Source: Linnemannia elongata (Eukaryota > Mortierellomycota > Mortierellomycetes > Mortierellales > Mortierellaceae). Taken from it: 64,000 bases of DNA. Under the pieces are notes generated by a model. It did not search any database. It saw only the letters and a program-made list of their open reading frames with translations, and had not been told where the DNA came from. The stretch spans positions 833,455 to 897,454 of the forward strand of contig JAXBDG010000021.1 of NCBI GenBank assembly GCA_036320915.1. Reading direction: 5' to 3'. Both the position numbers and the translations under genes were made by a program. Position 1 is the first letter of the stretch. Every line of letters starts with the position of its first letter. Positions 2,811 through 56,316 of this stretch are shown here, piece by piece.

Positions 2811-2841
2811 GGGTTAATCTATTCGACAACCCGGGTTGCTC
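2811..2841 (+). repeat. left terminal inverted repeat of MULE copy 1
   Basis: It pairs with 10687-10717. It begins GGGTTAATCTATT and contains the palindrome AACCCGGGTT, so each end could form a small hairpin or bind a dimer. Further GACAACCC / GTCAACC words follow to about 2900. Confidence 0.9.
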
Positions 2842-3222
2842 ACCTTGGCTGACAACCCGGCAGTCACACTTTGCAAAATAATTTGTCAACCGGGTTGCGA
2901 TATTACACCCTTCAAAGCATTGGCACCAGCCTCTGTCAACGCTTCTGTGCCACTGCCTCAAATACATCTGCCATACCTCTACACTCAGCTATCTGGCCCC
3001 CAATCACGCTGCCATCACCATTTAACCAAGCATATAAAAGTACCGCAGTTCCCCTGTACCATTAACAGCATCTTTTCTTGCCCCTTTCTTTTGTCTTGAC
3101 ACGGGTGTACCTTGTTCTCTACCCTTGTTTCTTAAGCCCCTGTCTATACACTTGTCTCCTTCTATTCCCTTGCTCACACCCACTTGCTCTGCTGCTTTTA
3201 TAGTAGAATATACGTTTATTGT

Positions 3223-4158
3223 CTAATGAGGACGAACAACGTAAACTGGATCGTTTTGAATTCTCTTGAGGGCTTGTTCATCAACCTCCAAAGTGAACGA
3301 TCCTTCACGCTTTGTTGATAAAAGGCTCTTGACTGTATCTCTAGTGAGCTTTTGTTCGTACATCAACTCTTCTTGCCTTTTCTGTTGGATATCAAGGTAA
3401 ATACGCTGTTGCTCGAAGGCCTTGCGATGTTGTTCCGCGAGGGCGCTCTGAAGATCGGTGCTTTGTTGAACTTGAGCAGTGGTGAAAGCCTGTAAGAACG
3501 TCATATGGTTCTCGGTCATTGAAGCCATAAACTTGGCATGCTGGGCTGTCGTATGCTCGGTGAATGACTCCAAGAAAACTTGATGACGCTCAATCATTTT
3601 TTGCTCCAGAAGCTGCCCGATAGTAGGTTCAGCCACCAAGGCCATTGATGTGGGCGCACGTGAAACAATGACGTCGCCGCATGAGGTGCCGTCGCTCGAG
3701 GTACTGCTGCTTGAAGTGCCGCCGTTCGAAGTGCCGCCGTTCGAGGTGCCGCCCCTTGAGGCGCCGAAGCTTGAGGTACTGGCGCTTGAGATGCCGCCGG
3801 TTGAGTCGGATAAGCGTAAAGATACATCTTTCTCTTGTCTAGGAACCGAACCATCGACTTGCGCCGTCTTCTTGAGTGCCTCTAGAGCGGTGTTTTTCGC
3901 AACCTTGCAGAGCTGATAGTGGCGTTGTAGAGACGAGTTAAGGGTAAAGGTTGATCCACAGTAGCAGACAAAATCCATGCCCTTTGCGATTTGTCGATTG
4001 AAAGTGGTTGGTTGATCGGTATGCCTGCAAATGAATGTGATGGGTTGGTCTGTGTGGTAGGCTACAACGTGGTTCTTTTGAGCCTTGGATAGTGGTCGAC
4101 CAAGGACAAGAAGGCCTTGGCCACAATCATAGTACGAACAAATGGTTCCGCGAGGCAT
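3223..4158 (-). CDS. MULE accessory protein: Cys/His finger plus coiled coil
   Basis: This is a 311-aa single-exon ORF read away from the transposase gene. I chose the ATG at 4158 (MPRGT...) because the second element copy starts at the equivalent methionine, although the frame stays open upstream to 4302. The first ~90 residues hold regularly spaced Cys and His, ending in a CxC-x(n)-HxxxC finger (CYCGSTFTLNSSLQRHYQLC). A Ser/Thr/Gly repeat follows (about residues 125-175), then a Gln/Glu/Lys-rich segment likely to be helical coiled coil (about 190-290). I recognise no named family. Its fixed position beside the transposase and its preservation in both copies suggest a transposon function such as end binding, analogous in position only to the second gene of plant MuDR. 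Confidence 0.75.
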   Translation of the reverse strand: MPRGTICSYYDCGQGLLVLGRPLSKAQKNHVVAYHTDQPITFICRHTDQPTTFNRQIAKGMDFVCYCGSTFTLNSSLQRHYQLCKVAKNTALEALKKTAQVDGSVPRQEKDVSLRLSDSTGGISSASTSSFGASRGGTSNGGTSNGGTSSSSTSSDGTSCGDVIVSRAPTSMALVAEPTIGQLLEQKMIERHQVFLESFTEHTTAQHAKFMASMTENHMTFLQAFTTAQVQQSTDLQSALAEQHRKAFEQQRIYLDIQQKRQEELMYEQKLTRDTVKSLLSTKREGSFTLEVDEQALKRIQNDPVYVVRPH

Positions 4159-4392
4159 GCCAAGAGAGGGTGCTGGAAGGTTTAGTGAGATGGGGTTGGC
4201 AAGAAGATGAAGAATGTGTGAGGAATCGGAGGTGCTATGTTTTCGGATATTTATGTGCCTCATTTTATATACAAACCATTGATATGAAAATGCATAATCC
4301 AAAGTTCACTATTCAACAGATGATTATGAATAAGACAATACTCTGAAAGAGATACTTGATCAAGCTAGCTGAGTAGCCATATATATGTATAT

Positions 4393-5090
4393 TCATTGAG
4401 GTATCGTAGCAAGTGTGTAAGGCGCCTCTCTTCCTTGCAAAAACAATTCTCCTTGAGAACGGAGCATGGTATGCAACAGGCATGTACATACATCCTTCAA
4501 GATATCGTAGGAAGTGTGCGAGACGCCTCTCTTCCTTGCAAAAACAATTTTCCTTGGGAACGGAGCATGGTATGCAACAGGCATGTACATACATCCTTCA
4601 AGATATCGTAGGAAGTGTGCGAGACGCCTCTCTTCCTTGCAAAAACAATTTTCCTTGGGAACGGAGCATGGTATGCAGCAGGCATGTACATACATCCTTC
4701 AAGATATCGTAGGAAGTGTGCGAGACGCCTCCCTTCCTTCCAAAAAAATATTTTTTCCCCGAAAGAGGAACGGAGCATGGTATGCAACAGGCATGTACAT
4801 ATATCCTTAAAGATATCGTAGCAAGTGTGCGAGACGCCTCTCTTCCTTGCAAAAACAATTTTCCTTGAGAACGGAGCATGGTATGCAGCAGGCATGTACA
4901 TACATCCTTAAAGATATCGTAGGAAGTGTGCGAGACGCCTTGCTTCCTTCCAAAAAAAATTTTTTTTCCTAGAAAGAGGAACAGGCATGTACATACATCC
5001 TTCAAGATATCGTAGGAAGTGTGCGAGACGCCTCTCTTCCTTCCAAAATTTTTTTTTTCCTTGAAAGCGGACTGGAGCATCACATAGCAT
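4393..5090. repeat. ~101-bp tandem repeat array between the two MULE genes
   Basis: About seven copies of a unit containing GATATCGTAGGAAGTGTG, GCCTCTCTTCCTTGC, GGAGCATGGTATGCA and CATGTACATACATCC. Units start near 4398, 4501, 4602, 4703, 4812, 4913 and 5006 (spacing about 101 bp, with 93 and 109 variants). Variable poly-A/T runs cause the length differences. The short ORFs on both strands here are repeat translations and are not listed as genes. The array sits between two divergently transcribed transposon genes, so it may be the element's bidirectional control region (inference). Confidence 0.9.
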
Positions 5091-5581
5091 ACATACGCAT
5101 CCAACCATTGTGGTACCGTAGTATATGTGCAAGGCACCTGGCTTTCTATCTTTTTTTTTTTTGATGCATCGCAAAAGGTACAGCTGGGAATTGATGTGTT
5201 GCGGACTTGCAACATAAACTGGTCCCGCTACAATTTTAAGCATACCAGCGCAAGACGATTACTTTTGACAACCCTGTACTCTCTGTCACTTGTAAGAGAC
5301 TTTAGAGCTGCTTGATCCATAATGAATAGGTGTAATTTGTGCTAAAGGAAAGGCGGTTTTCTCCTATTTTTGACACATCAGCAATAAGCTATAAAAGCTG
5401 ATATAGGATAAGGTAGGATAGGAAAAAAACCATCGAGCTTACTTGTTACACTCTTGACCCATCCTTTGCTGATCTCTTTTTCCCGCAGTTCCCGGTTAGT
5501 ATTAAACTTATATCCAGTCTTGTTGCACTTGAACAATATGCAGTTGTTAATAGTTGATGTTGTGCTGATTGTAAAGCTAGA

Positions 5582-8500
5582 ATGTCAAGCACCGAGCCTA
5601 TTCCTGTTGAGGACTGTCCTCCAAAATCTAAAGAGTCAAGGGTTATGTACAGTACTTACTGGCAAAAGTTGCAGACCGGTCGAATGTTGCTGGGAATTCC
5701 CTTGCCCAATATCAAAACAAATGCCAACGTTGAGGTCATCTATGAGCCCCCGCCACCCAAGGAGAGGATATATGAGGCCAGACTCGCAGCCCTCAGGACT
5801 ATTCCATCAAGAAACATTGCTTTGCAAGCCAACTCCATGTTAGGTATGAAGCGCATAAACAATATCGTTTTCATTTGCCTTTGCATCATTTTTTGGATTG
5901 AACTATTCGACAACCCCCCCTCCCATTTTTTTTTGGTATATAACTCTGTGCTAACTTTAGTAATCCTTTTTTTATAGTTGAAGCTGAAGGGGCTTGGGGA
6001 ATTCGTATCGAAGGCATAGGCGATTTTACATCCGCAGCTGTCAAGATCTTACTAGGTGCGGTGGACACGAACATTTTCATCGTCAAGGCCAGAGAGATAC
6101 TGAATTGGATCGATGTAAATTCCGACCGTGAGTTCGCCGATTGGTTCCGTACCCTTCTTTACACTACCCCGGGCATCATGATGTGGAAATTCAATCCAAC
6201 GTCTGGCGCGTCGCTAGGCATTTCAAACACCTTTGACCTCATGAAAGAGATTTACATTGACGATGAGATTGTGCGTACAGTCATGGAGCTCTTTTCCATG
6301 TCATATGGTGCAAACGATCGATATCTCTTCATTCCTCCCCTTCAAATCATTCTCTGGGGTCAAAATATCCTTTGGGAATGGAAGAAGGACCTAGTCAAGA
6401 GTGGGCGACTTGAAAAGGCATTCGCGATTGTTCATATGCCGGATCACTGGGGTGCTCTTGAAGTCGATTTTGAGCGGCGCAAGATCTCATTCGGGGATTC
6501 TCTCTCGTGTTCTATCCCTGAAGTGACCATCAACAACGTTCGCAATTGGATAAAATGCTGCGGCATTGACATTGGTCGGTGGGACTGCGACACTGGACAC
6601 TTTGCCGTTCCTCAACAACCTCCTGGAAGCGGATCGTGCGCTGTTAATGCCATTAATGCAGTGGAGAGGAGCGTGAATCCAAGGACGGCAATTTGGACCC
6701 ATACAAAGTCTGCGCAACATCGATTAAGGCTTCTTAAGCTGGTAACTGGCTATAGCAAGGTAAATATTGTTACAAAACATCAAGCTTCATTACTATGTAT
6801 GAAAATATCTTTCTTTACAACCTAACAACCGCTGTTAACATGTAGATCGAACCTCAAGGTCATTGCAATGTTGCTACAAAAAGTGATCGGAACCGAGAGG
6901 TAAAGATACTTGATCACAGAGCCGTATCGGGAATGAAGGCTGCTATGGGGAAGGTTAGTGAGGAGATTGGTAAGGAGGAGATTGCCGAGGTGGAGATTTC
7001 TGAGGTGGAGATTTCTGAGGAGGAGATATCTGAGGAGGAGATTGCCGAGGTGGAGATTTCTGAGGAGGAGATTTCTGAGGAGGAGATTTCTGAGGAGGAG
7101 ATTGCCGAGGTGGAGATTTCTGAGGTGGAGATTTCTGAGGAGGAGATTGCCGAGGTGGAGATTTCTGAGGTGGAGATTTCTGAGGAGGAGATTTCTGAGG
7201 AGGAGATTGTCGAGGTAGAGATTTCTGAGGAGGAGATTGTCGAGGTAGAGATTTCTGAGGTGGAGATTGCTGATGAGGAGATTGCCGAGGAGGAGATTTC
7301 TGAGGTTGGGATTCCTCAGGTGGAGATTTCTGAGGTGGAGATCACTGGAGGGGAAGTTGCTGAGGACAATGCTGGTGGTGAAACTAGCGTGGTGGACAAG
7401 CCTGATGAGACGAATAACGGATCGATGTGGATACCTCAGCTTGGCCAACAATTTGAAAGTCTGGAGATCTTTGAAGATCTGGTCCATCCTTGGGCACACC
7501 GACAAGGATTTCAGTTGCGACGAATGCAGTCTAGACTTGAAGAACAACATGGCCAATGTCCCCGAGGTAAATAATGAAACTGCTAGTTGTACGTGCTCCT
7601 CCTTGAATACAATTTCCGTCTAACCCATGTATTTTGTTTATGAATAGTAATTTTTGGTTGCTCTTACGCCGGCAAACACGAATCGCGGAAAAACGTGGAT
7701 CCAGAAAAGCATCGCAACAAGATTTCCAAGCGCACCAACTGTCCTTGCCGTATTGTTCTTCGATCTCCAAAAATGATATCTCCGTACTGGCACATCACCA
7801 CCGCTGTCACAGCTCACAGCGGTCACGGGTTCGAGCAAGGCACCATGGAATTCAACCGACGCGACAGACAGCTTACCGACAAAATGCTGGAGCAGATTTC
7901 TTCTCTGGCAGGCAGATTCAACGCAAAGCAAATTATCTACTTGCTGAATCAAGAGTGGCCTGACAAGGTGTTCGATCTTCGAACGGTCACTAACGCCATC
8001 CAAAAGGCGAGGAACAATGTGTACTCTGATGGCTCCGAGGCTGCAGAGTTATACAAGCTTCTACAAGACAAGGCGCGCAAGGACAAGGAATGGTACTTTG
8101 CAACAGAACTTGATGCCGAAGGACGCCTTCAACGAATATTCTGGATGAGTCCTTCTCAGAGATCCCTCTACCGACGTTATCGGGATGTGGTCCTCAGCGA
8201 TAATACCTTCAAGACGAACCGGTTTGGTATGCCCTTCAATGCTATCGTTATCGTCGACAACAGTGGAAAAAATCGCCTGGTTGGATGTTCATTGGTCTCC
8301 GGAGAGCACACAAAGGACTATGAGTGGATTCTTCGACAGTTGTTGATGGCAAACGACAATCTTGCTCCGCATACTATTATTGTCGATAACGATCACGCAA
8401 TGGAAGCTGCCTGCGCCAGCGTCATTGGACGCACGGTTCTCTTGAACTGCATCTGGCATCTTGGTCATCAAAATCTAGGTAGAAATCTTCGTGGCGCGCT

Positions 8501-9481
8501 CGGCAAGGACTGGCAGGCTTTTATTTCCACTTTTTGGACTACACGAAATGCTCTCACAGTTGTCGATTTCGAGAATAGATGGTCGCAGCACGTTAAAGTC
8601 TTTGGCGTTGACAAACCAGACGTTGAGGCTTACTTGGAGTGGATCTTTAAGCGTCGCGAGCACTGGGCGTGGCCGTGGGCTGGTACAAGATTCACCGCTG
8701 GAATTCAAGCAACACAAAGGGTGGAGAGTGTAAACGCAATCATCAAGCGAGCCGTTAACAGCAAGACCTCCCTTCCAGTCCTATTCGAGTCTACTGAAAA
8801 GATGCTATCGGATGAGGCCAGGACGTCGCGGTATCTACACTACAGGATGGATATGACAGCTGATCCTTCACTGACCCAATTCACCAAGAAGATGTTTGCT
8901 GATATTATTGATGTGAACAGTCGCTTTCTTGGCATCGCAGCAAAAGGCCAGATGATGATGGAGATGATGCGATCCATCTATTATCAATCCGAATTGCACC
9001 AAGCTACCAAGGTCGAAAGAGCTGCCGAGTGCAATGAAGATCAGCCAAACGAGGCTGGCGATGATGACAAGGTAAGCATATAATAAAATCGTGAGATGAT
9101 GAAAAATACTAAAGCCCCCCCAAAAAAATGGTCAAGGCATTAATGATTGATATTGCCTTCGTCTGTAGTTTGAAAAGGCGTCCAAGGATGAAGGCCTACC
9201 AACCGAGCGCAGTGGGGAGCAATTAAACGAGGCAGGCGATGTTGAGGAGGTAAGCTTATTTAAAAAAAAAGATCGTTTGTTGATGAAAGTTGCTAAGCCC
9301 CCAAAAAAAAATGAATAAGGCGCTGAAGATCGCTCTTGCCTTCGTCTGTAGTTTAAAAGAGCATCCAAGGGAGAAGGCCTACCAACCGAGCGCAATGGGG
9401 AACAATTAAACGAGGCAGGCGATGTTGAGGAGGTAAGTTTATAAAAAAAAAAGATCGTCAGTTGATGAAAGTTGCCAAGCC

Positions 9482-9514
<33 letters not shown>

Positions 9515-10497
9515 TCAAGGCATTAATGATTGCTATTGCCTTCGTCTGTAGTTTGAAAAGGCGTCCAAGGAAGAAAGCTCACCAACCAAGCGCAGTGGGG
9601 AGCAATTAAACGAGGCAGGCGATGTGGAGGAGGTAAGCTTATAAAAAAAAAGATCGTTAGTTGATGAAAGTTGCTAAGCCAAAAAAAAAAAAAAAAAAAG
9701 ACTAGGGCATTAATGATTGCTATTACCTTCGCATGTAGATTGAGAAGGCATCCAGGGATGACCGTCTGAAAACCTCGCTCAAGTCCTTGATGGCAACTGT
9801 CACTTGCGACCGGATTAAGTGCGTGTTTGATGTGACATACCGCCTAGACGTTGATCAAAAGACACGACAGCATGTTATCCTGCTGAACGACGACTCGTAT
9901 CTTTGTACTTGTCTTCTGCTCCAAAACAATGGACTTGTGTGTCGGCACTTTTTCCACCTCATGCAAGTCGATAGTCGATGCAAGTATCATCTCAAGCTTA
10001 TTCCCAGACGGTGGTTCAAGGAAGAGCTGCAGGATTCAATTGACCTTGAAGAGTCGATGGGGCCTTTCCTGCGCACCAAGACGCAGAAGGCATATGTCGG
10101 CTTGGAGGACGCAACTGTCAACCCTGCCGCCACGTACATGGTCGATATTCAAAAGATTTTTCCATTGGCGCCCTCCCTCTCGCGAGATGATCAAAGCCAG
10201 CTTTCAAAAAAGCGCCGCTATGGCGAGATATCGGGTCTGATGAAGGATATTATTACGGTGGTAGACTCAAATCCGGACGTGTTCGATATGGTCAAGGAGA
10301 GTCTCGATCAAGTCATTGTGAAAGGTAGAGGAGTTGAAGGAATGAGGGATCCAGTTCACGTAAAGACGAAAGGCAGACCCAAAACGTCGCGGATAAGGAG
10401 TGTAACCGAGGTCAAGAAGCACTCGACAAAATGTGGAGTATGCAATGGAGAAGGTCACAATGCAAGAAAACATCGTCGCTCTCAGTTTGACCCATAG
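5582..10497 (+). CDS. Ulp1-like protease fused to MULE transposase
   Basis: Eight exons join in frame: 5582-5843, 5978-6759, 6846-7566, 7648-9071, 9169-9249, 9352-9432, 9552-9632 and 9739-10497, giving 1396 aa. Residues ~230-320 look like a C48/Ulp1 cysteine protease, with His244-Trp, Asp261 (GDSLS), Gln300/301 and Cys308. Ulp1 enzymes cleave SUMO or its precursors; the target here is unknown. An acidic EEI/EVEIS repeat follows (about 380-520). A FAR1-like Cys/His region comes next (about 590-650), then the MULE DDE core: Asp773 in SDNTFKTN, Asp835 in IIVDND, a CIWHLGH motif and Glu948 in RVESVN. A SWIM finger (CTC...CRH, ~1200) and a C-terminal CxxCxxxGH zinc knuckle end the protein. All catalytic residues are present. 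A single transcript is inferred from phase-matched splice sites; no cDNA was seen. Confidence 0.8.
6955..7360 (+). repeat. coding minisatellite (GAGGAGATTTCTGAGG-type)
   Basis: This is an array of 15-bp and related units based on GAGGTGGAGATTTCT, all within exon 3 of the Ulp1-MULE gene. It encodes about 130 residues of alternating EEI, EVEI, SE and AE. The frame stays open throughout, so unit gains and losses have been multiples of three. It forms a strongly acidic linker between protease and transposase and is deleted from copy 2. Confidence 0.9.
9160..9750 (+). repeat. tandemly triplicated 81-bp exon with its intron
   Basis: Exons 9169-9249, 9352-9432 and 9552-9632 are near-identical 81-bp units (27 codons each), each preceded by TCGTCTGTAG and followed by GTAAG(C/T). 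The introns between them are also alike, carrying GTTGATGAAAGTTGCTAAGCC and poly-A runs of different length. The start of exon 8 (9739) resembles the same unit. The decayed copy has only one unit (about 57655-57730). Confidence 0.85.
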
Positions 10498-10686
10498 AAC
10501 GACCTGGATTAAACAAAGACGCAACATTTATGCACAAAAAATACAAGGTGATATTAGTCCAGGTAAAACGGTTGAGCCTCAGGCCTTCTGTTATACGGCA
10601 ACCCGGTTGGAAAATGAGAATAGATTGGGGGGTTGTCAAATAAGCCATGAAACTTTCCTAATAAGGAAAGGGTTGTCAAATAAAAT

Positions 10687-10717
10687 GAGCAACCCGGGTT
10701 GCCAAATAGATTAACCC
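10687..10717 (-). repeat. right terminal inverted repeat of MULE copy 1
   Basis: It is the reverse complement of 2811-2841 with two mismatches. Two direct copies of GGTTGTCAAATAA lie just inside it (10631 and 10671), probable subterminal transposase-binding words. The 9-bp target duplication follows at 10718-10726. Confidence 0.9.
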
Positions 10718-10764
10718 AAATAAAAAAAGAGAAAAGTGCAGCTCCCAGAAAAGCAAAAGATAAT

Positions 10765-10836
10765 GGGCCGAACCGGGAATTGAACCCGGGACCTCTCGCA
10801 CCCTAAGCGAGAATTATACCACTAAACCATCCGGCC
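10765..10836 (-). tRNA. tRNA-Pro (AGG)
   Basis: 72 nt, no intron. The acceptor stem GGCCGGA pairs with TTCGGCC, and the anticodon stem-loop CTCGC-TTAGGGT-GCGAG gives anticodon AGG. Box A (TGGTTTAGTGG) and box B (GGTTCAATTCC) are present. It is transcribed away from its partner at 10979. Confidence 0.93.
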
Positions 10837-10978
10837 AATCTTGATATGAGAAAATTTTTTGACATAGTTTAGTTCCTGAGAATGGACAGACTTTGAATTG
10901 GTGGCGTCGCTAAATTGGTGGCGTAGTATTTTGCTGGAATTAGTATGACAGATATTCAGCTTAATCAACAAGTTGATT

Positions 10979-11050
10979 GGCCGGATGGTTTAGTGGTATA
11001 ATTCTCGCTTAGGGTGCGAGAGGTCCCGGGTTCAATTCCCGGTTCGGCCC
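10979..11050 (+). tRNA. tRNA-Pro (AGG)
   Basis: Identical in all 72 nt to the gene at 10765 on the other strand. Anticodon AGG. A TTTT terminator lies at about 11056 in the 3' flank. Confidence 0.93.
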
Positions 11051-11310
11051 ATTATCTTTTGCTTTTCTGGGAGCTGCACTCTTCTTTTGCTACTGTTTGG
11101 CCTGTGGTTCAAACGAGGCATGGAGCCAGGTGGCGCCCTGTCACTATATATATTTCTCTATTCCTCGATAGTAATGGTTACGGATTTTTTGTTCCTCAAT
11201 CACTCAGTCATCTACACTCTGCTTTTGCTTTTCTTTTCTTCTGGCCATTTTTTTTTTTTTTTTTTCAAAAATGGCGAAGGAACGAATGCAAAATGGTATT
11301 GAAGTGGTAT

Positions 11311-53406: not shown

Positions 53407-55549
53407 GAAAAAAGGGACAAATGGGCAAAAGGGAGGGAAAGGGAGGGAAAAGGTGAAAGTGAGAATGAACATATCTTTGGAGACAGAGAGAGAGAGAGTG
53501 GATTGGAGGGGAGTGAGGGGTGGCACAACACTCAACACTCTTCAACGGCCGCTCACAAAAGGGGGAATAAGAGGACAAAACAGGACAACCAGCAAGAAAG
53601 GGGCAAATCACATCCATTCACTCTCACCCATTCTCTGTCTAAAGAGAATAAGAGAATAAGAGAATAAGAGAATAGAGGAGCGGAGATCGCAATTAGTGCA
53701 TCGCAACGAGTAAAAGGAGTCGGACACATCGCTAGAAAAAGGACTATCTATTCCATCGCAACTGTAATCGTACAGTACTCCTTTGCTCAAGGGAAAACAT
53801 TCTCTTCTTTCCCTTTATTTCTTTTCTCTCTCTCATTCATTCACGCTGAACATGGACAATCATTGGGAGAATGTTGTCTTCCTTTCATAATGCAACTGGC
53901 TTGTGTACCTATCGATCATCACCAATGTTCGCACTGTCACCTCCTTCCTTCCCTCCCTCCTTCCCTCCCTCCTTTCATCCTGCTCCACCCCAGTCCGTAG
54001 GGCACTCTCAACTATTTGCTCTTCCTGCTGCTGCCGCTCCCCCCTGGCTGGCCTTTGTGCTTTCGACTGTTTTGAACCATACAACCCGGCTCTCATTTTT
54101 TTTTCTTTTTTTCAACAACAAGGACAGGGCTCCTTCTTTCACGCAAATGCTCTTATTTTGTTTTCTCTTTCACTCGCTCTTTCACTTTTGTCCACTGGTT
54201 CTCTATATCCATCCACACCTTTTTTTTTTTGGCTCAAAGTCCAGGTCGTTACTCCAATGTCAACACAAAACAGGGGATACTGATATGACTTCACGATGGA
54301 GTTGTGGTGATTTTGTTGGATAGGCTGCGGTGGTCATTTATTTGTATGTTGCCGTGGTGGAGGGATGAAGGAGGGACATCGTTGGCATTTTGCTCACGCG
54401 ATGTCCCTCTTTCTATTTGCTTTGTTCGTTCTTTCACCCCGTTGTATGCCCCTTTCAGCATTCCTCACACCATCATCGACATTCTGGGATTTATGTATTT
54501 GCTCCGCCTGTCTTCAAACCAGCATACAATCACTCTATCAGCAATTAACCTTGCGCTAAATGAGACGCCAAAACATAAACAATGGAATGATGGAACAGAA
54601 AGGAAAATATGAATAAAGGGCCCAGGGTGAACAAGCGCAGACTGATGCTCCACCTTTGTCATTCGCACATGCTTTCAATATCTCTTCCTGCATTACTATC
54701 TGTAATGTTTCTTCTTTTTCAATTATTCGACAAGAAAGGAGTATGTATAGCATGCTCTCGTTTTTCATATTTGTATTTTTTGTGCAACGTCAATTTTTCA
54801 GCTTTCTCTCTCTTTCTCGCTCTCTCTCTGTCTCTGTATTTGTGTTTTCTCGTTTTTATTTTTCTTTGTCAAACATATTCTCAACCTTGTAGATAAAACA
54901 GCATTCAAAACAAACGGAACAGTCAGGGGTTGAGGGGTCAGGGGTCTGAAGGTGAGTCCAGATGCACGTCCACAAATCGTTTATTCTACCATCTTTGTAT
55001 CCTTTGGGTGTTCGGGCTTACCATGTCCGTCCCTTCATCGTCATTAATTGTGATGGAAGGCTAAAATATTCTTTTGTTGCGGTTTTTTCTATAACCTGTT
55101 CCCAGGAACAACACCCCTTTTTTGCTCATAGAGCTACGATAGTTGTTACACTTGTTTCTTACTCTTGTGTTCATCTACCTCATTTAGCTGTGGGCATAAA
55201 AACAAGAAATGTAAAGGGAAAGAACAACACAAAGCCGACGCTTGAGATACAAGAATGTTGAAACATAACAAACGTACAGGATGGCAGAGATCGATTGTGG
55301 TTGAAGGTGAATATGTAGTAGAGAAGACACAGAACAGAATGAGACTACCTTGGAGAATAAAGAAAAACAAAAACGCCTAAGCGAAAAGAGAGAGAAAAAG
55401 AAAAGGCCAAGTGTGATTGACCGAGTAAAGGGAGGAATGGTCTCGGACACTTCGCCCAAATACCAAAAAAAAAAAAAAAAAAAAAATGCCAACGCGAAGC
55501 AGCAACAGGTTAGCATCACGAGTGTCCACTGCCAAAAGTAAAAGAGAAT
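52195..55549. other. intergenic, 3.4 kb, low-complexity
   Basis: Between the Boi-like gene and the second tRNA pair. It has a purine-rich plus strand from about 53030 to 53500 with a poly-A core (about 53370-53405), CCTTCCCTCCCT repeats near 53940-53980, AGAATAAGAGAATAAGAG repeats near 53645-53675, CT-rich tracts at 54800-54830, and a poly-A at 55466-55486. The long ORFs (for example 52803-53531) are translations of simple sequence. I see no gene. Confidence 0.55.
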
Positions 55550-55621
55550 GGGCCGAACCGGGAATTGAACCCGGGACCTCTCGCACCCTAAGCGAGAATT
55601 ATACCACTAAACCATCCGGCC
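55550..55621 (-). tRNA. tRNA-Pro (AGG)
   Basis: 72 nt, identical to the copies at 10765 and 10979, with the same anticodon loop TTAGGGT and A/B boxes. Divergent from its partner at 55768. Confidence 0.93.
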
Positions 55622-55767
55622 AATCAGCTTGATGTGAGGCAAAATTTAAACACAGGTTGGTTCCTGAGCTCAAATATGTCCGAATTTAGTGGCGTCGTTA
55701 ATTTGGTGGCGTATTATTCCCTGGAAACTAGTAGGTCAGATATTCTTTTGGATGCAACAAGCTGATT

Positions 55768-55839
55768 GGCCGGATGGTTTAGTGGTATAATTCTCGCTTA
55801 GGGTGCGAGAGGTCCCGGGTTCAATTCCCGGTTCGGCCC
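55768..55839 (+). tRNA. tRNA-Pro (AGG)
   Basis: Identical 72-nt gene, TTTT terminator in the 3' flank (about 55843). The 146-bp spacer to its partner shares word order with the spacer at 10837-10978 (TTCCTGAG, GTGGCGTCG, TTTGGTGGCGTA, CAGATATTC) but has diverged clearly more than the tRNAs. Confidence 0.93.
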
Positions 55840-55936
55840 ATTCTTTTGCTTCTCGTGGGAGAGGCCTCTTAGTTTGGTTCTTGGACGCCTTCTGGACACC
55901 AGCATTATCTCCTTGGAATATTCTACTTGGCTGCCC

Positions 55937-56316
55937 GGGTTGCTCGAATTATTCGACAACCCCCGTACTAAGTCCATGCAACTCAATTTTTTGTTTTTTT
56001 TTACACAGCACCTTGTTGCAACATCACAAGCTCGTTACTAATGTGTTCAATTCGTTGCCCTGCTTCCTGTGGTTCAATTCATGGAGTTCGTGTCCCATAT
56101 CGTCATTACCACGGTTTGTCAGTAGCTAGAAAGTGATGATTTCAGCCAAAACGCTTCAATGATCTACTCTGAGGCTGCGAAAATGATGCTCCGAGAAAGC
56201 GCGAAGGGAAGCAAGCTGTCTCCATGAGTTAGGCCTCTCCTGTGCACGTTTTCGTCTTGAAAACAAAAAAAGTGAGTTACATGGACTTAGTACGAAGTTG
56301 TCGAATAGGTTAACCC
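55937..56316. mobile_element. small inverted-repeat element related to the MULE ends
   Basis: The segment from about 55948 (ATTATTCGACAACCC, then CGTACTAAGTCCATGCAACTC) is repeated in inverse at 56270-56316. Outer ends carry ATTCGACAAC, the same word as the MULE terminus, and the right end reads GGTTAACCC. It is about 380 bp with no ORF, so likely a non-autonomous derivative. The left outer ~10 bp are altered and no target duplication is clear. Confidence 0.55.

Follow-up and report, generated by a model that had tools for sequence, protein, structure and literature searches.

The 64,000-nucleotide stretch of Linnemannia elongata DNA analysed here (contig JAXBDG010000021.1, positions 833,455 to 897,454; hereafter the window) contains a DNA transposon whose main gene appears, from its predicted splicing, to encode a single protein in which an Ulp1/SENP-type C48 cysteine protease is joined, through a low-complexity linker that varies, to a FAR1-MULE-SWIM transposase. 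The element, called family A below, has the features of a Mutator-like element (MULE): a MULE domain with DDE motifs and FAR1/SWIM domains, terminal inverted repeats (TIRs) and a target-site duplication (TSD) of about 9 bp. The original prediction had described a single gene at 5582-10497, with eight exons keeping one frame from the protease through a complete DDE transposase with a SWIM finger. Both the span and the frame of this gene stand, but the element extends well beyond it and holds a second gene on the minus strand (Table 1).

When GT-AG choices were enumerated in narrow stretches around each of the seven introns expected, three gene models remained open, with lengths of 1394-1400 aa. 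They diverge at intron 1 only and have exons 3-8 in common; the model of 1396 aa is used throughout (exons in Table 1). The transposase is complete as judged by its motifs, with LSDNTF at residue 771, IVDND at 833, CxWH at 856, RVES at 946, the SWIM finger CxCx9CxH at 1200 and a zinc knuckle at 1376, the DDE triad being read from these motifs as in other MULEs; the MULE and FAR1 domains are both over the Pfam cut-offs. The repeat exons 5-7 arise from a tandemly repeated unit (9122-9758) made up of an intron and an 81-bp exon, which gives three similar 27-aa exons with phase-0 introns between them.

The second gene is open in all 11 family A copies of the genome, ten encoding the identical protein and one a protein with 1 aa difference over 311 aa. 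This protein matches no Pfam family over cut-off, and may perhaps be an accessory protein like MudrB or VANC. The element is apparently autonomous.

Table 1. Features of the element and of its surroundings in the window
Feature	Position	Strand	Remarks
Whole element, family A copy	2811..10717	+	7907 bp; inverted ends, 9-bp TSD, same ends in other copies
Left TSD, AAATAAAAA	2802..2810		
Right TSD, AAATAAAAA	10718..10726		
Left TIR	2811..2858	+	48 nt, 85% complementary to right end
Right TIR	10670..10717	-	48 nt
Second gene	3223..4158	-	311 aa from internal Met (earlier in-frame Met present); C2H2-like finger and coiled-coil-like tail by eye
Minisatellite between the two genes	4402..5048		101-bp unit
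Exon 1	5582..5843	+	residues 1-88
Exon 2, Ulp1/SENP-like C48 protease	5978..6759	+	residues 88-348; intron 1 acceptor with three open choices
Exon 3, linker with acidic 5-aa repeats and FAR1 start	6846..7566	+	
15-bp tandem repeat coding the acidic linker	6960..7342	+	length varies among copies
FAR1 DNA-binding domain	7491..7817	+	residues 564-645, spans exon 3/4 junction; PF03101, E 1.2e-7
Exon 4, transposase	7648..9071	+	
MULE domain (Pfam extent)	8187..8462	+	residues 769-860; PF10551, E 9.7e-21
Exon 5, 27-aa repeat exon	9169..9249	+	
Exon 6, 27-aa repeat exon	9352..9432	+	
Exon 7, 27-aa repeat exon	9552..9632	+	
Exon 8, SWIM finger (9904-9948) and zinc knuckle (10432-10473)	9739..10497	+	
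tRNA-Pro	10765..10836	-	ARAGORN; 3' end 47 bp from element right end
Short TIR element	55915-56316		75 bp from tRNA-Pro; own TSD TATCTCCTT

The protease domain and its predicted join to the transposase

The catalytic residues of the protease all lie in exon 2, with the codons of His244, Asp261, Gln301 and Cys308 at 6445, 6496, 6616 and 6637, respectively. His, Asp and Cys were found exactly where they had been predicted; for the proposed Gln300/301, both glutamines are present but only Gln301 is conserved. The set His-Asp-Gln-Cys, in this order, is invariant in 19/19 aligned sequences (H156, D173, Q213 and C220 in exon numbering), in which relatives carrying the full set fall to as little as 35% identity to the window protease. 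The same residues are kept in two further MULE families of this genome, B and C, and the protease was aligned to the Ulp1 of the host. In structural modelling, the protease matches the Ulp1/SENP fold. In Pfam, 12 of the 19 aligned members match PF02902 at E up to 1 (best 1.9e-6), family B over the cut-off and family C below it. The window protease alone gave no Pfam match in a single-sequence scan, even at E 10, and its assignment therefore rests on alignment, profile and fold. Conservation of the catalytic residues in relatives with identities as low as 35%, and in three families, makes it very probable that the fused protease is active and serves the element. The named relatives of the element's host are Mortierellomycetes.

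The prediction of a C48 protease in frame with a complete MULE transposase is borne out, and the continuity of the reading frame can be followed join by join. The linker and FAR1 both begin in exon 3, so that no splice separates them, and the FAR1 domain itself bridges the join between exons 3 and 4. The join of protease to linker depends on the intron at 6760-6845. Among 18 aligned relatives, 13 continue past the protease end, all 13 with Val as the first residue beyond it, so that GT stands in the DNA at this position; similarity stops after it. Three NCBI models have other residues after the protease end, followed by low-complexity repeats, as if spliced, while one of the remaining relatives stops at the protease end and one falls short of it. 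It weighs against a single fused protein that the relatives apparently spliced after the protease contain protease and linker only, without the transposase part. Region searches aimed at long fused proteins and searches of plasmid records yielded nothing useful, and none of 29 pattern matches in viral contigs is a relative. As the gene model stands, a single mRNA would carry the whole fusion.

In family B, one canonical intron suffices to connect the protease with the linker/FAR1 exon, and a second connects this exon with a frame of >960 aa containing the transposase; PF02902 and MULE are both over cut-off, and FAR1 is not reported by Pfam. Family B is an independent case of the same predicted fusion. 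The domain order of family C is that of family A, but its several introns allow 158 open splice paths, and it adds correspondingly little to the argument. A fusion produced artificially by damage to a single copy is ruled out, given that 10/11 copies keep it and that families B and C repeat the domain order. The acidic repeat was also considered as a conserved SUMO-interacting stretch, which is ruled out by the unrelated repeats of the relatives (GEMDG in P0003, QDKAT in P0006, Pro/Ser in family B and Asp/Glu in family C).

Copies in the genome and neighbouring tRNA genes

Across the genome surveyed (51.1 Mb, 32 contigs), family A comprises 11 copies; their protease exons are 100% identical and their transposases nearly so. 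A TIR search found 22 perfect family A ends, i.e. two per copy. The TSDs are exact 9-mers in ten copies and 7 bp long in copy C12; all of them differ, hence the copies are separate insertions. Ten copies encode the whole fusion (1356-1396 aa), identical up to the linker and with 0-3 differences after it, in four linker lengths; copy C7 has a one-base deletion in exon 1. The near-identity of the copies suggests that the element has been mobile recently.

The Pfam MULE model is over cut-off at 22 genome loci, distributed among families A (11), B (2), C (4) and a group labelled 'D' (5). A protease lies upstream of the MULE in the same orientation at all 20 loci examined (11/11 A, 2/2 B, 4/4 C and 3/3 examined D), of which the Pfam protease model alone recovers family B only. 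The idea that 'D' is a transposase-only group is ruled out: it is 99.7% identical to family C over the stretch compared, and the protease is present, with a frame break, at the three loci examined. The five D loci lie about 22-32 kb from the ends of contigs C1, C13, C17, C18 and C20, and for this reason may have spread with subtelomeric blocks. The family C copies still align up to the limits of the stretches compared. A large-subunit rRNA fragment lies near one family B element (L086, 1033-1689, contig C17).

In nine of the 11 family A copies, the tRNA gene nearest to the element lies 41-129 bp from one end, and in 9/9 the element stands 3' of that tRNA (flanks: window 10765-11050, L053, L054, L057, L068, L070, L071, L074 and L075). 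These nine genes represent eight amino acids (Pro, Ile, Ala, Leu, Val, Asp, Arg, Ala, Tyr); the Rfam tRNA model also recovers eight of them, and the window tRNA-Pro rests on ARAGORN. Taking all 1419 first-look tRNA candidates as genes, the chance probability of 9/11 copies within 200 bp is about 6e-16. For comparison, two tRNAs occur in the 162,687 bases (overlapping parts counted repeatedly) of the 44 loci that surround the window relic and the other families, and both adjoin a single old relic on contig C30. No tRNA, Rfam included, is present in the flanks read of copies C1 and C3 or in their joined empty sites. Nor does any tRNA lie within the roughly 4 kb read to either side of the two family B copies, which argues against tRNA adjacency as a general rule. 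Further tRNAs in either orientation lie 261-570 bp from the window copy and copy C12. In the window, two pairs of oppositely oriented tRNA-Pro genes are present at 10727-11088 and 55534-55870, in regions about 85% alike, the first pair sitting in an inverted repeat with 114-nt arms that are 98% complementary.

A TIR with 1-3 mismatches occurs at 26 further sites of the genome. Eight of these were read (L093-L100): six have both ends of an element of 427-456 bp, three of the six with an exact 9-bp TSD. A tRNA lies 32, 73 and 86 bp away at three of the eight, with the insertion on its 3' side; at the other five no tRNA was found in the only about 115-160 bp read per side, where a tRNA beyond some 45-85 bp would escape. 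Six more sites adjoin one of 63 listed tRNAs, by position only, with gaps of 65-102 bp if the length is about 427 bp and always on the 3' side, and the remaining twelve, away from any listed tRNA, were left unread. In total, ten short elements (400-456 bp), six of them by position only, stand 32-102 bp from a tRNA on its 3' side. These short elements look non-autonomous.

The window also harbors an old broken relative of the element at about 56.8-62.3 kb on the minus strand, about 80-87% identical and with much of the linker and transposase lost. The stretch 55915-55962 was considered as its 3' end and rejected, being one end of the short TIR element, which has a TSD of its own, TATCTCCTT; this relic is thus not counted as tRNA-adjacent.

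Known systems and the possible role of the protease

Several unrelated transposons have been reported to carry proteases of the Ulp1 or OTU type, for which Bao and colleagues proposed a role in transposition in 2010 (PMC2836005). The view that the fusion is without precedent does not hold. In Ginger1, the transposase protein itself has an Ulp1 or OTU domain at its C-terminal end, Ulp1 being listed for 8/16 tabulated families, and the same paper reports Ulp1 in hydra, lancelet and plant Mutators and labels aligned sequences 'Mutator TPases' (PMC2836005); some rice CACTA proteins unite Tnp2 and ULP1 domains (PMC2528002). Ginger1 resembles the present protein in having an Ulp1-type domain together with a DDE transposase, and differs in its C-terminal protease, Gypsy-integrase-like transposase and CCGG/CCGT targets, whereas the protease here is N-terminal on a FAR1-MULE transposase that is associated with a 9-bp TSD. 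The hydra and lancelet Mutators likewise encode Ulp1, but in animal hosts.

Kaonashi (KI) MULEs and their KIU genes also combine a MULE with a C48 protease gene. The statement that their protease is not spliced into the transposase stands for the KI-MULEs of Arabidopsis, where ULP is in reverse to mudrA, but it needs the addition that direct orientation too is described in melon, rice and grapevine (PMC2528002). Kaonashi elements are described as non-TIR with ULP reverse to mudrA, whereas here we find 48-bp TIRs and both domains on the same strand in a joint frame. Vandals bearing KIU are associated with hypomethylation (PMC13317346). In Mutyl, a fungal MULE, the TIRs measure 22 bp and the TSDs 9 bp, and a second protein is encoded; a protease is not mentioned in the passages available (PMC5014426).

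With respect to target sites, Dada DNA transposons are likewise tied to tRNA genes, but their insertions fall within tRNA or snRNA genes at fixed positions and have a TSD of 6-7 bp (PMC3706591), whereas nine of the family A copies lie at varied distances, 41-129 bp, downstream of nine different tRNA genes, and the TSD of the family is 9 bp. Dictyostelid retrotransposons are found downstream of tRNA genes, TRE3 at about 100 bp and Skipper-2 at 7-136 bp (PMC5006619); these are retrotransposons of amoebae, whereas a MULE and short TIR elements of a fungus are concerned here. The element belongs to none of the Kaonashi-MULE, Ginger1 and Dada classes. In literature searched by titles and abstract openings, with most subscription journals outside, we found neither a fungal Ulp1-MULE fusion nor a MULE targeting tRNA flanks; relative to that literature, the fungal N-terminal protease-FAR1-MULE form and its landing site beside tRNA genes are new.

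From the kept catalytic residues we infer an active protease, and the reading that we favour, as a fairly probable one, is that of a fused protein in which the protease rides on the transposase and removes SUMO or a related modifier in cis. The transposase half would act as an ordinary MULE transposase, mobilizing the element with 9-bp duplications, and would bring the protease, on the same chain, to the target site and the ends of the element. Because both are on one chain, the protease would act where the transposase binds, and could there strip the modifier from the transposase and from neighbouring chromatin proteins, leaving a transpososome unmarked for silencing or degradation. With 11 near-identical copies in a fungus and the enzymatic residues kept, the element offers a clean system, in which a C308A mutation could reveal whether transposition needs the protease.

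The strongest alternative, which we regard as unlikely without dismissing it, is that one locus yields two products. Retention of intron 2 would give a stand-alone protease ending at the stop at 6825, and the transposase would come from an internal Met at 6933 or from the spliced form, the protease acting in trans. Reading through intron 2 indeed gives a 293-aa stop-to-stop open reading frame ending at 6825, an in-frame ATG is seen by eye at 6933, and the apparently spliced relatives would agree with it. However, GT is conserved at the protease end, the 107 bp from the protease stop to Met 6933 leave scant space for a separate promoter, and the frame of exon 3 starts right after a stop, so that splicing or internal initiation is required.

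The position of the copies raises the question of how a DNA transposase finds RNA polymerase III (Pol III) genes, and whether a SUMO protease contributes. That the protease, or its binding of SUMO, helps to position insertions in the SUMO-bearing Pol III chromatin beside tRNA genes seems doubtful to us. The idea is attractive because SUMO is reported at tRNA genes in yeast and mammalian cells (PMC6128692), and 9/11 copies lie just downstream of a tRNA gene. Family B, however, has the same domain order and no tRNA in the flanks read, which argues that the protease alone does not set the target; moreover, the short elements without a gene are placed likewise, a pattern compatible with any part of the transposase that acts in trans. 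Somewhat more doubtful still is the specific version in which a transposase-fused SUMO eraser clears, or docks on, sumoylated Pol III factors, enabling insertion just downstream of active tRNA genes. If true, a DNA transposon would reach a landing zone that, in the literature covered, is otherwise reached by retrotransposons, Dada going inside genes.

It is improbable that the protease matures a polyprotein by cleaving itself from the transposase within the linker. The linker has two Gly-Gly pairs (residues 516 and 525), and Gly-Gly is repeated in the linker of P0003 too, but no Gly-Gly is shared by all: none is seen in the known part of the P0006 linker or in the linker exon of family C, that of family B precedes Pro, and the linkers have no common sequence. 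Finally, although MULEs often capture gene fragments, ULP pieces included (PMC2528002), a captured passenger without activity is very hard to reconcile with four catalytic positions invariant in 19/19 sequences at identities down to 35% and kept in families B and C.

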